Source: a virus
DNA length: 27,673 nt
Strand: one strand, 5' to 3'
IMG/VR virus record: IMGVR_UViG_3300043411_000887
Span: 1 to 27,673 of that record
Within the stretch, counting starts at the first letter, position 1. Every line of letters starts with the position of its first letter. The translations under genes and the position numbers were made by a program. The notes under the pieces were generated by a model. The model had not been told where the DNA came from. It saw only the letters and a program-made list of their open reading frames with translations, and ran no database searches. This document shows positions 13,591 to 18,551 of this stretch, piece by piece.

Positions 13591-14259
13591 TCAGTAGTTG
13601 GCGGACTCGGTCCAGTCGATGCTGATCGCGGCCTGCCAGGTGCCCGTCGCCGGGACCGCCACCGACCGGATCGAGAACCCTTCGTTCTGCGCGAGCACCA
13701 GCGGGTGCCGGCCGTCGCCGATCTCGCCGCGGTACAGGATGGTTCCCGGAGCGATGATCTGGCCGTTGAGCGAGGCCGTGATCGGCCCCGGCGCGAGGAT
13801 CGTGGCCAGGCTCAGCGTCTCGAGCGTCTTGGTGCCGGCGCCGAGCGCGGCCGTAGTCGCGATGCGCGCGTCGCCGGACGACATCAGCGACGACGACATC
13901 GAGGTCCGCTTCTTGAGCAGTGCGGCCGGGCTAATCGCCGTGCCGAGCGTGCCGGCGACGGTCCAGCCGGTCGACTTGACCAGATCGATCTGGACCGGCA
14001 CGCCCGCGGCAAAGAACGTGGTCGTCACGCACGCCGAGATCTTGATCTCGTTGATGATGCAGACGCGGGTGGCGTCGGCCCAGCGGAACTGGAAGATCTC
14101 CGAGTTGGCGGCGAGCGCGGCCGGGATGATGCCGGTGAACCCGCCGTAGGTGTAGTGGCCGAAGCCGGTGGAGTCGGTCGGGCGCGCGACGTGCTTGACC
14201 GCCCCCGCCGCGTCGGTGTCGAGTTCGTATCCGGTGCTGCCGATGATCTCGATGGGCAT
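13591..14259 (-). CDS. Virion/tail appendage protein, 222 aa
   Basis: ATG at 14259 one base after the previous stop, with TGGAG five bases upstream, fixes the start; the frame extends upstream but that part is shadow. The protein begins MPIEIIGSTGYELDTDAAG and is beta-rich throughout. Distinct segments are RVCIINEIKISACVTTTFFA, then VPVQIDLVKSTGW, a Ser/Met stretch TSMSSSLMSS, and a C-terminal GFSIRSVAVPATGTWQAAIS followed by IDWTES. This pattern, a jelly-roll ending in a 'W.A.I.I.W.E' strand, recurs in phage tail or capsid surface proteins encoded beside fiber genes. No enzyme motif. Role inferred from fold style and position. Confidence 0.78.
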   Translation of the reverse strand: MPIEIIGSTGYELDTDAAGAVKHVARPTDSTGFGHYTYGGFTGIIPAALAANSEIFQFRWADATRVCIINEIKISACVTTTFFAAGVPVQIDLVKSTGWTVAGTLGTAISPAALLKKRTSMSSSLMSSGDARIATTAALGAGTKTLETLSLATILAPGPITASLNGQIIAPGTILYRGEIGDGRHPLVLAQNEGFSIRSVAVPATGTWQAAISIDWTESANY

Positions 14260-14260
14260 A

Positions 14261-15046
14261 TCAACTCCAGCGCCAGCCGACCGACCACCGGCCGTAGAGG
14301 CGCGCACGCTTGAAGGGACTGACGCGCGTGGGGATCACGTTGCTGCGCCCGCCCGCGTTGCGCTGGGCGATGAACAGCGGGGCCGGGCCGGGCCGGTCGG
14401 GCAAGAAGCCGTGGATCGTGAAGCCGACGCCCGCCGTCGGAGGCCCGGCGATGACCCGGATGCTCTCGACCAGGTGCTCATCGGCCGTGTGATCAGCGGT
14501 CGCCACCGGCACGATCCACGCCTCGGTTACCGACGCGCCAGCGATCGTCGCCTGTCCAGTCACAGCCACCGTCGCGTGCGCCGATCCTGGCCAGGCCCCG
14601 AAGTCCAACTCGACCGTTCCGCTTGTTCCGACGCCGGCGGCGCCCGTCGCACCATCGGCGCCGTCGCGGCCCGACACCATGCGCTCGCCCAGCGCGGTGT
14701 AGCGGTCCCATCCGGTACGCGACTCGAACCGCAGCGACTCGCCGGCGGCCAGCGAGACGGACTCGATCACGACGTCGGTGCCGCCGGTGTCGCGCTGGAC
14801 CCGTACCGTGTTCGCGCCGGCGCCCTCGTTGCGGATCGAGATGTCGGTCACCTCGCGATAGATTGACGAGGTCGACGGCGCCGCCACGATCGTCTTGGTG
14901 GTCGCCGAGCTGAACGTCGTGTCCGTCGTGCCGGGCGTGTAGGTCGTCGCGGCGGTCTTGTCGATGTCGGCCCACCCTGCGACTACGTGGATCGCGTCGG
15001 CCGTGGACGTCGCCAGCTCGAGCTTCTGGGTCGAGAGCAGCTTCAC
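14261..15046 (-). CDS. Virion protein sharing a domain with the decoration protein, 261 aa
   Basis: GTG at 15046 overlaps the upstream stop as GTGA (15043-15046). Residues 1-120 form a beta domain: VVAGWADID, a Thr-rich region, YREVTDISIRNEGAGANTVR, then SVSLAAGESLRFESRTGW. This closely parallels residues 10-115 of the 265-residue protein at 16437-17234 (VVVAYVDLG, VETISIRNRDVAS, VTLGAGAHLFYERNSAGW). A short collagen-like stretch (GRDGADGATGAAG) follows near residue 130, then a second beta region ending in the basic tail LYGRWSVGWRWS. The mix of a surface domain and collagen-like repeat suggests an exposed virion fiber or adaptor. Confidence 0.78.
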   Translation of the reverse strand: MKLLSTQKLELATSTADAIHVVAGWADIDKTAATTYTPGTTDTTFSSATTKTIVAAPSTSSIYREVTDISIRNEGAGANTVRVQRDTGGTDVVIESVSLAAGESLRFESRTGWDRYTALGERMVSGRDGADGATGAAGVGTSGTVELDFGAWPGSAHATVAVTGQATIAGASVTEAWIVPVATADHTADEHLVESIRVIAGPPTAGVGFTIHGFLPDRPGPAPLFIAQRNAGGRSNVIPTRVSPFKRARLYGRWSVGWRWS

Positions 15047-15687
15047 AGCATCGCCCCGATCGCCAGGATCTCGTCGACGCTGGCGGCCGATCCGCTCGCC
15101 GGCGCGGCCCACGTCCCATCGGCGCGGAGGAAGTTGGACGTCCCGCCGCCGGACGCCGGGGCTAGGCCCTTGAGCGCCGCCGTGAACGTGTCCAGGAGCG
15201 TCGTGGCCTGCGTCCCGGTCAGATCCTCGGGGTCGCCGGTGCCGGCCGTGACGCGGCCCTTGAGCGTTGAGGTCGCGACGTTGTCCAGCTTGGCGTTGGT
15301 CACCGAGTCGGCCGCCAGCTTGCCGGTGTCGACCGCGAGGGCGTCGATCGTCCACGTCGTGCCACCGGCGCTGACCGTGATGTCGCCCCGGTCGCCATCG
15401 GACAGGCCGCCACCGCCACCACTCGGCGTCGACCACGCCCCGGTGCCGTCGAGGTAGTGCGTCGGGTCGCCGTCGAGCTCGGGCATGAACCCGGCCGCCG
15501 TGGTCGTCGCGACCGCGTGCGCCGCGCCGCCCGCGCCGATGTGCGGCTCGAGCTTGTCGATCACGCGCTCCGTCGCCGCGGCCACCGAGTCGATCGCGCG
15601 GTCGACCTCGCTGGCGTTGTACGCCTCGGGCACGCCCGGCACGGCGGGCTTCGCGATGACGTCGCGAGTCCTCCGCTTGCCGCTCAC
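15043..15687 (-). CDS. Tail fiber-like protein, 214 aa
   Basis: GTG at 15687 overlaps the connector stop as GTGA, and its own stop overlaps the next start in the same way. The N-terminus is basic (MSGKRRTRDVIAKPAVPG) followed by a helix (NASEVDRAIDSVAAATERVIDKL). The rest holds familiar fiber-shaft motifs: THYLDGTGAWSTP, a Gly5 run, LSDGDRGDITVSAGGTTWTI, LAADSVTNAKLDNVATSTLK, GRVTAGTGDPEDL, and FLRADGTWAAP. These segments recur in many phage tail fibers and tail-collar proteins. The short length and early position suggest it links the connector to longer fibers. Family assignment is confident; exact role is not. Confidence 0.82.
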   Translation of the reverse strand: MSGKRRTRDVIAKPAVPGVPEAYNASEVDRAIDSVAAATERVIDKLEPHIGAGGAAHAVATTTAAGFMPELDGDPTHYLDGTGAWSTPSGGGGGLSDGDRGDITVSAGGTTWTIDALAVDTGKLAADSVTNAKLDNVATSTLKGRVTAGTGDPEDLTGTQATTLLDTFTAALKGLAPASGGGTSNFLRADGTWAAPASGSAASVDEILAIGAML

Positions 15688-16334
15688 CCGGGCCACGTCG
15701 AGCCCTCCCACGGCATCGGCAGGTACGCTGGTTCGGCGGTGTTGCGGTTCTGCGAGGCGCGGACGATGCGCGCCCGGTAGCGGTCGATCGCGGCCAGGCG
15801 GTCGCCGAGGGGCCGCTCCTCGCGCTCGTCGCAGCGCAACAGGATCGAGTGGACAATGAAGCCCTCCCATCCGTTCGGCACGTCGATCGAGTCGCCGTCC
15901 GCGGACAGCGCCGTCATCGCCGGCACGTAGCGCAGGCGGATCGTGTAGGCCGCGTCGGGCGTCGGGAACAGCTCGAGGTTGGTCCCGACGTGGAGGTACC
16001 CGACGGGGCGGCCGGTCGCCTGGTCGAAGCCCAGCGCCTGCGGGCCGGGCTGGAAGCGGCGCAGTTGCCGGTAGGTGCCGCCGTCGAGGATGTCGACGGC
16101 CCGCGCCTTGAGGAACGCGGCCGGCAGCGCGACGGTGGCGACGCTCGCCGTGGTCGTCACGGTGTCCGTCGTGTCGCGGTAGCCGTCGAAGTGCTCGTCG
16201 AGCAGGTCGAAGTAGTCGCCGATCGCCTCGTTCACCCACGGCGTCATCACCGCGTCGGTGAAGACCGTCGAGTTCTCGTAGTCGCCGAGCTGGCGAGCAC
16301 GCGTGCGAAGGGTGGCGAGGGTGATCGCGGTCAT
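15684..16334 (-). CDS. Head-tail connector / adaptor protein, 216 aa
   Basis: ATG at 16334. The N-terminal pattern (LATLRTRARQLGDYENSTVF, then MTPWVNEAIGDYFDLLDEHF) is typical of phage adaptor proteins of the gp4/gp11-like type: 'L..LR.R....D.E.S....D.....W.N.A..... DLL'. Later segments LELFPTPDAAYTIRLRYVPA and GWEGFIVHSILLRCDEREER fit the same family, which binds below the portal and joins the tail. Length of about 215 is normal. No Shine-Dalgarno sequence is visible; only 8-9 bases separate the start codon from the end of the tRNA-like gene upstream, so translation initiation here may be unusual. The stop overlaps the next gene as GTGA. Confidence 0.84.
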   Translation of the reverse strand: MTAITLATLRTRARQLGDYENSTVFTDAVMTPWVNEAIGDYFDLLDEHFDGYRDTTDTVTTTASVATVALPAAFLKARAVDILDGGTYRQLRRFQPGPQALGFDQATGRPVGYLHVGTNLELFPTPDAAYTIRLRYVPAMTALSADGDSIDVPNGWEGFIVHSILLRCDEREERPLGDRLAAIDRYRARIVRASQNRNTAEPAYLPMPWEGSTWPG

Positions 16335-16342
16335 GCTGTTCG

Positions 16343-16413
16343 TTGCGGGCCCGGGAATCGCACCCGGTTCTGCGGCGTATGAGGCCGCCGTGTTGCTGGC
16401 TCACTCGCCCGCG
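16343..16413 (-). tRNA. Initiator-type tRNA-Met(CAU)-like gene, degenerate
   Basis: Read on the minus strand, about 70 bases fold as a cloverleaf. The acceptor arms CGCGGGC and GCCCGCA form six GC pairs with an unpaired C1xA72, the hallmark of bacterial initiator tRNA, followed by A73; CCA is not encoded. The anticodon arm is perfect (GCGGC / GCCGC) with loop CTCATAC, giving anticodon CAU at 16381-16379. The T stem CCGGG / CCCGG is perfect. Departures from a normal tRNA: T loop TGCGATT instead of TTC-type, G8 instead of T8, a D stem of only three pairs (GTG/CAC), a D loop without the GG pair, and a four-base variable loop. It could be a functional odd tRNA, a decaying one, or a tRNA mimic. 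It sits between the decoration and connector genes on their coding strand. Confidence 0.72.
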
Positions 16414-16436: not shown

Positions 16437-17234
16437 TCAGACGGTGCGGACGTACTCGAGGGTCGCGCCGGCCAGCGCGGTGATCGCCGAGGCGCCGACC
16501 TCGCTGGCGAACTGGATCGCCGCGGTGCCGTCCGCGGAGGGCTTGAAGAAGCCCTCGACCACCGCGACGTTGCCGGTGGTCAGCGACGAGGCGTTCGCGG
16601 CGGCCGGCTGCTGCAGCGCCGTGTAGTAGCCGAACGTCTCGGTCGAGGCGGTCAGCGGGTACCGGCTGGTGTAGCTGATGTGGGTCATCGCCGGGCCGTT
16701 GATCGTGAAGCGCGCGCCGGTCGTGGTCGCCGCCGCGGTGTACGGGACGACCGCGCGGAAGCGGTACACCTGCCCCGAGGTGACCGCGAACGACAGGCCG
16801 GTGATGTTGGCCAGCGTGTCGGCCGCCGAATTCGCGACGTCGGCCGCGGTGGTCAGCAACACGCCCGCGTTGAGCGTGGTGGTCGGCGTGACAGTCCAGC
16901 CCGCCGAGTTGCGCTCGTAGAACAGGTGGGCGCCGGCGCCGAGGGTCACCTTGTAGACCTCGGCCGTGGTCGAGTCGCCGTCGAACAGCTTGACCGTCAC
17001 GTCGCACGACGCGACGTCGCGGTTGCGGATCGAGATGGTCTCGACCTGCCGCCCGAGGACGGAGTTGGTCGGCCCGGTGCAGATGTTGGTGGTGGTCGCG
17101 GTGCTGATCAGCGTCGGGACGCTGGCCGGCTTCTGGTCGCGGTTCACGCCGAGGTCGACGTATGCGACGACGACATCGATGGTGACCGCCGCCGACGTGG
17201 TGAGCTTCAGGACGTACTTGGGATTGATGAACAT
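16437..17234 (-). CDS. Virion structural (decoration-type) protein, 265 aa
   Basis: ATG at 17234 with AAGGAG nine bases upstream, just after the major capsid stop. The protein is beta-rich and Thr/Ala/Val-rich. Residues about 10-115 (VTIDVVVAYVDLG, VETISIRNRDVASCDVTV, VTLGAGAHLFYERNSAGW) match the N-terminal domain of the 261-residue protein at 14261-15046. Residues about 125-260 form a second domain (LANITGLSFAVTSGQVYRFR, ARFTINGPAM, VEGFFKPSADGTAAIQFASE) of a type often seen in phage capsid or tail surface proteins. Position directly after the capsid gene suggests a head decoration or abundant minor virion protein. Function is inferred. Confidence 0.8.
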   Translation of the reverse strand: MFINPKYVLKLTTSAAVTIDVVVAYVDLGVNRDQKPASVPTLISTATTTNICTGPTNSVLGRQVETISIRNRDVASCDVTVKLFDGDSTTAEVYKVTLGAGAHLFYERNSAGWTVTPTTTLNAGVLLTTAADVANSAADTLANITGLSFAVTSGQVYRFRAVVPYTAAATTTGARFTINGPAMTHISYTSRYPLTASTETFGYYTALQQPAAANASSLTTGNVAVVEGFFKPSADGTAAIQFASEVGASAITALAGATLEYVRTV

Positions 17235-17252: not shown

Positions 17253-18551
17253 TCAGGCGGTGGGCAGCTTGGCGACGCCGTTGCGGCCGGGCGCCTCGCA
17301 GCCGAGGTTGCAGAACGCCGCCAGCCACGCCTCGACCTCGGGGGCCGTGGAGCCGCTGGTGTCGAGGCGCATGATCGAACCCTCGATCTCCTCGGTGGCG
17401 AAGAACGGGACGCCGCCGCCGGTGTAGCGGAGGGTCCAGGTGGATGGCTCGAGCATGTACATGCGGTTGCTCGGGCAGTGCCGGGTCCCGATCACCTTCA
17501 TGCGGTACGGGCCGACCTGCGCGCTCATGCCCGAGGCGATCTCGCTGATCTTGAGGATCGAGCCGTCGGCCATCCGCTCCGACGCCGACACGGTGATCGG
17601 CGTGTAGGGGATGCGCGCGGCGAGCCAGATCTGCTGCAGCACGGTCAGCTGGTCGGTGGGCAGGATCCACAGCTCCGGCTTGGCGCCGTACTTGGACATG
17701 TCGCCGGCCAGCTTCAGCGCGATGTCGTTCAGGTCACCGCTGACCGCGGTGCCGTCGACATAGATGCCGCCGAGGCGGTTCGGGTCCTGCGAGCGGGTCA
17801 GGCCGTTGAACGACGCCGCCAGCTTGGCGGTACGGCTGTCGACGGGGAGCCAGTCCTCGAGCCCGTTGGGGCACGCGTCGTAGTCGCCGTCCTGGAAGAT
17901 GTAGTCGAGGACCGCGATCCCGGCCTCGGTGTTCATGTTCGCGCCGGCCGTGGTGACGGTGCCGGCCTGCTCGTCGACGGACAGCACGGTCAGGATGCCC
18001 GACAGCGTGCCGCCGGCGCGGACCGAGCCGCCGCCGTCCGCGGTGCTGAAGTTGATCTTGTCGCCGGGCTGGAAGTTGAACGCGTCGGCCTTGTCGGTCA
18101 GGATGATCGTGGTGCCGCTGACGGTGGTCGTCGACGCGACCTGCCCGATCTTGCCCGACTTGCCGCGGTACAGCCGGCGCTCGATCTTCGAGCCCAGCTC
18201 CTTCATGCCCTCGTCGAACTCCTTGGTGATCTGGTAGATCGACTCGCTGGACTTCTTCGCGGCGGTGAAGAGGTTGAGGTTGATCGCGACCCGCTGGTAC
18301 AGGTCGGCGCGCGAGATGTTCATCTTGAACATCTTCGAGGCGGTGTTGTTCGTCTTGGCCTTCGAGTAGGTCGCGCTGGACCCGCCCGGCGCGCGGGTGC
18401 GCACGGCCTGGACGAAGTAGTCGCCACCGCTCTGCTCCTTGCCGACGGTGGCGAGCAGAACGTTGTCGACGTAGGCGAGAGACTTGCGGTGATCCTCGCT
18501 GTAGATCTCCTTCAGCGAGGCATCGACGTCAGCGAATGCGGTTGCGGTCAT
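17253..18551 (-). CDS. Major capsid protein, 432 aa
   Basis: ATG at 18551, preceded by GGAGG and GAGGAG elements and a hairpin that ends at the start codon. The order portal, scaffold, this gene, decoration, connector marks it as the major capsid protein, and its sequence agrees: an N-terminal helix (SLKEIYSEDHRKSLAYVDN), a helical E-loop-like and spine region (ADLYQRVAINLNLFTAAKKS, SIYQITKEFDEGMKELGSKI), an inserted beta domain at about 140-215 (TIILTDKADAF, SGILTVLSVDEQAGTVT), and a late region LKLAGDMSKYGAKPELWILP. The length and layout suit an HK97-fold capsid protein. No N-terminal protease domain is fused. Expected to be the most abundant virion protein. Confidence 0.88.
   Translation of the reverse strand: MTATAFADVDASLKEIYSEDHRKSLAYVDNVLLATVGKEQSGGDYFVQAVRTRAPGGSSATYSKAKTNNTASKMFKMNISRADLYQRVAINLNLFTAAKKSSESIYQITKEFDEGMKELGSKIERRLYRGKSGKIGQVASTTTVSGTTIILTDKADAFNFQPGDKINFSTADGGGSVRAGGTLSGILTVLSVDEQAGTVTTAGANMNTEAGIAVLDYIFQDGDYDACPNGLEDWLPVDSRTAKLAASFNGLTRSQDPNRLGGIYVDGTAVSGDLNDIALKLAGDMSKYGAKPELWILPTDQLTVLQQIWLAARIPYTPITVSASERMADGSILKISEIASGMSAQVGPYRMKVIGTRHCPSNRMYMLEPSTWTLRYTGGGVPFFATEEIEGSIMRLDTSGSTAPEVEAWLAAFCNLGCEAPGRNGVAKLPTA

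Follow-up and report, generated by a model that had tools for sequence, protein, structure and literature searches.

A candidate initiator-type tRNA(CAU) with an A18/G55 elbow encoded among the structural genes of an uncultured phage

Introduction

Formylation of methionyl-tRNA is directed by an unpaired C1-A72 together with A73 and the pairs G2-C71, C3-G70, and G4-C69 (PMC9976931), and the features of initiators also include purine 11 and G31-C39 (PMC8887418). A review of T loops (PMC7912444) takes the elbow contact between G18 and U55 to be universal, and a paper cited in PMC4810234 is reported to connect the 18-55 pair of the tRNA in the P site with fast translocation. A natural tRNA with replaced G18G19 (UU or CU) is the non-proteinogenic tRNA(Gly) of Staphylococcus aureus, which serves cell-wall synthesis (PMC4052509). 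Among viruses, phages are reported generally to avoid encoding tRNA-fMet, the target of VapC (PMC10264068).

Here we describe a tRNA(CAU) gene in an uncultured phage that resembles bacterial initiator tRNA(fMet) in its CAU anticodon, C1/A72, A73, G2-C71, C3-G70, G4-C69, G29-C41, and G30-C40, but differs from it in carrying A18/G55 instead of G18/U55, G8/G14 instead of U8/A14, U-A at 11-24, and C-G at 31-39, and in being phage-encoded inside structural genes. Unlike the S. aureus tRNA(Gly), which loses G19, it keeps G19-C56 and changes A18 together with G55. The same A18/G55 elbow is present in tRNA-Met genes of Brevundimonas phage Kikimora (ON529857) and Erwinia phage Cronus (MH059636), which belong to other phage groups, are annotated only as tRNA-Met, and have no adjoining head genes in the stretches read; the Cronus tRNA further differs in A1/C72 and U73. 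We found no description of the A18/G55 swap or of a phage initiator tRNA in full-text searches of open-access papers. The best reading of the element is an initiator-type tRNA, phage-encoded and with an alternative pair at the elbow, which may also act as an RNase P/Z cut point between messages.

Results and Discussion

The window, by which we mean the whole 27,673-base IMG/VR virus record analysed, encodes terminase, portal, and major head protein genes on its minus strand. The tRNA(CAU) gene (16413..16343, minus strand) lies in a 102-nt spacer with no other tRNA, between a 265-aa gene (17234..16437) and a 216-aa gene (16334..15684). The features of this region are as follows.

17253..18551, minus strand: major head protein gene (phrog_14242), the query for finding relatives
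16437..17234, minus strand: preceding gene, 265 aa, no family (structural gene), common only to the window, L001, and L075
16417..16430, minus strand: GNRA hairpin GCCCC-GCAA-GGGGC, ending 3 nt ahead of tRNA nucleotide 1
16343..16413, minus strand: tRNA(CAU) gene with initiator-type acceptor and alternative elbow, 71 nt without CCA
16407..16413, minus strand: 5' strand of the acceptor stem, CGCGGGC, with C1 unpaired and G2, C3, and G4 as formylation determinants (PMC9976931)
16394..16400, minus strand: D loop GCCAGCA, with A18 at 16397 and G19 at 16396 by alignment to the covariance model
16377..16383, minus strand: anticodon loop CTCATAC, anticodon CAU
16356..16362, minus strand: T loop TGCGATT, with G55 at 16361 and C56 at 16360
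16343..16350, minus strand: 3' strand of the acceptor stem, GCCCGCA (ending in A72), then A73; CGA comes next, so CCA is not encoded
16335..16342, minus strand: 8-nt stretch from A73 to the next start codon, without a Shine-Dalgarno site
15684..16334, minus strand: next gene, 216 aa, head/tail connector-like (phrog_2941)

Divided by structural element, the tRNA reads CGCGGGC GA GTGA GCCAGCA ACAC G GCGGC CTCATAC GCCGC AGAA CCGGG TGCGATT CCCGG GCCCGCA A, a cloverleaf of four stems in which 19 of 20 stem pairs are formed. While G19-C56, G53-C61, U54-A58, and U33 are all present, the canonical U8, G18, and U55 are replaced by G8, A18, and G55; G8 stands opposite G14, and no Levitt pair 15-48 is evident. 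An earlier sequence-only reading of this DNA had given the position, strand, anticodon, C1xA72 mismatch, A73, G8, three-pair D stem, and T loop correctly.

ARAGORN in default mode called no tRNA at the element, and the Rfam tRNA model (RF00005) scored 27.6 bits, 1.4 below its gathering threshold of 29 (E = 1.5e-5 in the 27.7-kb record). With a relaxed threshold ARAGORN did find the element, a result that we set aside as evidence on its own, since chance matches were too many. Covariance models made from 29 phage tRNA(CAU) genes, the window not among them, matched exactly at 16413..16343 with 71.8 bits (G55 model, E = 4.6e-15 over 335 kb) and gave 64.2 bits for the element with the T55 set (E = 3e-13); because the DNA pattern that selected the model sequences had been drawn up from the window and its relatives, these scores, unlike the Rfam score, are partly favoured. 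A general blind spot of ARAGORN for G55 tRNAs was ruled out: it found 61 of 66, which indicates that such tRNAs are already annotated and only have not been recognised as a class. The folding energy of the element is ordinary (z = -0.78) and uninformative; the evidence for this tRNA is comparative.

Neither tblastn searches of cultured phages with the 265-aa, capsid, and terminase proteins nor a capsid profile search of bacterial genomes returned relatives. Relatives were recovered among viral contigs by head-protein and connector searches, with identities from 63% down to below 30%, and five of these uncultured phages carry a tRNA(CAU), in four cases at the same junction before the connector gene.

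L001, 10175-10246: tRNA(CAU) at the junction before the connector
L075, 4883-4965: tRNA(CAU) at the junction before the connector
L007, 5780-5853: tRNA(CAU) at the junction before the connector
L051, 8463-8534: tRNA(CAU) at the junction before the connector, with an HNH-like frame in between
L006, 9713-9782: tRNA(CAU) one gene further upstream

The window groups with L001 and L075 as a clade in the head-protein tree (98/100), and A18/G55 is present in all three; the relatives with an A18/G55 tRNA are also those that share the 265-aa gene. No tRNA was present at the junction in L002, L003, L055, L056, L008, L079, L080, and L083, and given that L002 and L003 are close to L051, the tRNA is dispensable in the wider group. 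Whole-record Rfam searches gave no confident tRNA in the 54.6-kb L001 record or the 58.8-kb L006 record, which leaves the initiator-type gene as the only evident tRNA in these two phages. No peptide deformylase was found in the related records.

Several further observations concern these contigs. In L075 the A18/G55 tRNA gene encodes its CCA and has an extended variable region containing a CCC-AACT-GGG hairpin, and in L051 (8463-8540) the HNH-like endonuclease frame, identified by eye, directly follows the tRNA. At the same junction, L002 (10407-10495) and L055 (8354-8430) have a large G+C-rich hairpin in place of a tRNA, followed in L002 by a T run that makes it terminator-like. The protein encoded at 13591-14307 of the window is 57% identical to one in L055, which is distant by head protein, but the search detected none in L001, the closest of the relatives; this is mosaic exchange of a tail-region gene.

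The spacer alignment across related phages that the sequence-only reading had called for revealed compensatory stem changes. With the six elements aligned to the covariance model, 94.8% of cells pair compared with 66.6% after shuffling, and both sides changed in 14 of 20 stem pairs (covariation score 0.73 vs. 0.17 shuffled), all these statistics being favoured by the fitting of the alignment to the cloverleaf. None of 500 shuffles reached the six-phage values, and controls slid along the sequence fell to 0.12 or less. When the window and L001 are aligned by hand, nine pairs show compensated differences and a further one has changed on one side only. This synteny and these compensated changes strongly support a selected rather than a decaying element, as had been proposed from the sequence alone, and the comparison shows a real tRNA gene with a conserved structure. 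A decaying tRNA gene acquired by chance could account for the sub-threshold Rfam score, G8, the loss of U8-A14 and U55, and the lack of an encoded CCA. We regard this as extremely unlikely in view of the nine compensated pairs, the strict association of A18 with G55 across the family, and the retention of the tRNA in all three members of the clade.

Acceptor-stem pairs 2-71 to 5-68 (GCGG/CCGC) and A73 are invariant in the six phages, so that the formylation determinants G2-C71, C3-G70, G4-C69, and A73 are present in 6/6, and the window tRNA, with C1/A72, carries all those listed. Pair 1-72 across the six phages is C/A, U.G, U/U, U/U, U.G, and U-A, never G-C: five have no Watson-Crick pair at this position, and L006 has a weak U-A. 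In the anticodon stem of the window tRNA, G29-C41 and G30-C40 are present, while 31-39 is C-G rather than G-C. Pair 11-24 is U-A in the window and purine-pyrimidine in the five relatives; the wider tRNA family is evenly split at this pair (38 vs. 37). Because purine 11 and G31-C39 are missing, we do not file the window element as a standard tRNA(fMet).

These features also bear on whether the gene might supplement decoding as an elongator tRNA(Met) or a tRNA(Ile2, CAU). The CAU anticodon fits such a role, and the U-A at 11-24 in the window is as in elongators. However, the 1-72 position, unpaired in the Watson-Crick sense in all but L006, and the GCGG/CCGC and A73 kept as in initiators speak against it, and a single Met tRNA would bring little codon benefit; we therefore consider an elongator improbable. 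The window tRNA has the build for formylation and most likely acts as an initiator, and of the three roles that the sequence-only reading had offered, an alternative initiator is the best supported, through formylation determinants kept in six phages and a 1-72 position that is weak or unpaired.

We thus think it probable that the gene yields an initiator-type tRNA(CAU) as follows. It would be transcribed within the late structural message and excised by host RNase P and the enzymes of 3' processing, after which CCA would be added and methionyl-tRNA synthetase would charge it. The charged tRNA would be formylated and start translation of phage messages. Its elbow would be closed by A18/G55 and G19-C56 instead of G18/pseudouridine55 and G19-C56, making the odd D and T loops a single coordinated tertiary change. 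The replacement of U8 by G8, the lack of an evident Levitt pair 15-48, the absence of the tRNA from L002 and L003, and the missing 11-24 and 31-39 marks count against the initiator reading. One thought is that a phage start tRNA might secure supply under host toxins, such as VapC, that attack the start tRNA.

The position of the gene suggests a second role. In the window, L001, L075, and L007, the tRNA lies next to the connector gene, which in 4/4 cases shows neither a Shine-Dalgarno site (-1.7 to -3.5 kcal/mol) nor overlap with the upstream gene, while in 12 relatives without a tRNA there the connector gene has a Shine-Dalgarno site in 8/12 and a stop-start junction in 4/12 (Fisher p = 0.0005, post hoc). 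In the same four phages a hairpin stops 3-4 nt short of the tRNA, its loop in L075 being UUCG. The tRNA might then serve mainly as punctuation, its excision leaving the head mRNA with a stable hairpin at its 3' end and the connector mRNA with a very short leader needing no Shine-Dalgarno site. As a main role we consider this possible but doubtful; it may coexist with the initiator role. Each hairpin is individually of weak significance (0.045 to 0.43 of shuffles as good), the leader left by excision would range from 3 to 35 nt, and the L006 tRNA sits elsewhere, before a gene with a normal Shine-Dalgarno site. Moreover, pure punctuation needs neither CAU, nor formylation determinants, nor a preserved 18-55 contact. 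The earlier proposal of an RNase P/Z cleavage site between mRNAs accordingly stands only as a possible added role.

Placement just ahead of a start codon without a Shine-Dalgarno site would also suit an unexcised tRNA-like regulator or mimic in the mRNA leader, for instance one controlling connector translation or binding a synthetase. The element has a weak Rfam match to the tymovirus tRNA-like element (RF00233; 20 bits, E = 0.09), which shares a T loop beginning UGC. However, this score is half the cut-off of 40, the tymovirus element is a 3' end structure of plant RNA viruses, and we see no sign of relation. Given that the same form exists as CCA-encoding tRNA genes in many phages and in the tRNA set of a bacterium, we judge an unexcised regulator or mimic very unlikely, and the mimic suggested from sequence alone found no support. 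An initiator-type tRNA with an altered elbow remains the preferred reading.

That elbow is not confined to the window. Scanning by pattern for tRNA(CAU) genes whose T loop reads TGCGA returned at least 120 viral and at least 118 bacterial stretches; a control pattern with TTCGA was also run on viral contigs, and the D loop lay outside the pattern. Among the matches listed, phage and bacterial cloverleaves with a 7-nt D loop combine G55 with A18-G19 in 75/76 cases and T55 with G18 in 57/57. The D and T loops, which had been called abnormal, are therefore not individually so and represent an A18/G55 form of tRNA(CAU) that is widespread; the D loop does lack GG, but as GCCAGCA it supplies the A18-G19 that goes with G55, and this is no sign of decay. 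The window, L001, and L075 all have A18 G19 and G55 C56 in a CAU cloverleaf with a weak or absent 1-72 pair, the D loops of the latter two being CCAGGA and AGAGCA. Bits from the G55 and T55 models favour G55 for the window (71.8/64.2), L001 (50.0/39.2), and L075 (29.0/21.4), and T55 for L051 (71.3/81.5), L007 (64.7/70.6), and L006 (26.6/31.1). Of the tRNAs in the set with a 7-nt D loop, the two others that carry G8 likewise have G14, a hint that G8/G14 may be a second paired change.

An independent sample gave the same association. In 94 genomes from the class to which a Gottesmanbacteria genome belongs (Patescibacteria, the class of G022), searched with a pattern open at position 55 and with the D loop free, initiator-type tRNAs with G55 all have A18-G19 (13/13) and those with T55 all have G18-G19 (31/31). 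The 18/55 states occur in at least two different sequence backgrounds, so positions 18 and 55 change together, and do so repeatedly. Within this one class, cellular initiator-type tRNA genes switch between G18/U55 and A18/G55 at least two times, always jointly (for example G053, G111, G084, and G068 vs. G055, G065, and G048). In the Gottesmanbacteria genome, which has 48 tRNAs, a 1.2-Mb contig carries no initiator-type CAU tRNA besides the one with A18/G55, the other CAU tRNA there having G1-C72, which suggests that this elbow can serve initiation in a cell; against this, a third, initiator-like CAU tRNA is on a separate 49-kb contig. The tRNA of Gottesmanbacteria and its kin is like that of the window in A18/G55, G19-C56, C1/A72, and CAU, but is cellular, has another D stem and variable loop, and shows no synteny.

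With a natural A18/G55 replacement that evolved repeatedly and is present in many initiator-type tRNAs, the G18/U55 rule becomes directly testable. The finding also raises the question of why some of these phages keep a start tRNA, their only evident tRNA gene, among head genes. A broader, speculative and rather unlikely proposal is that phages and Patescibacteria share a second, self-consistent elbow solution (A18/G55, sometimes with G8/G14) that bypasses pseudouridine 55 and lets a phage initiator evade a host factor that reads the elbow, for example a modification enzyme or a tRNA-targeting defence, while still working in the P site, and that in the clade of the window the gene also cuts the late transcript.

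The idea that A18/G55 is confined to initiators was ruled out, since other isotypes carry the swap in some tRNA arrays. Contigs L204, L302, L308, L310, and L315 hold arrays in which many isotypes have G55, often with A18-G19; these are one viral contig and Verrucomicrobia and Deltaproteobacteria contigs, and the arrays look like a mobile type. A Planctomycete and a Verrucomicrobium (G024 and G026) have tRNA(CAU)-like genes with an ordinary T loop, TTCAAAT, in addition to an A18/G55 tRNA(CAU).
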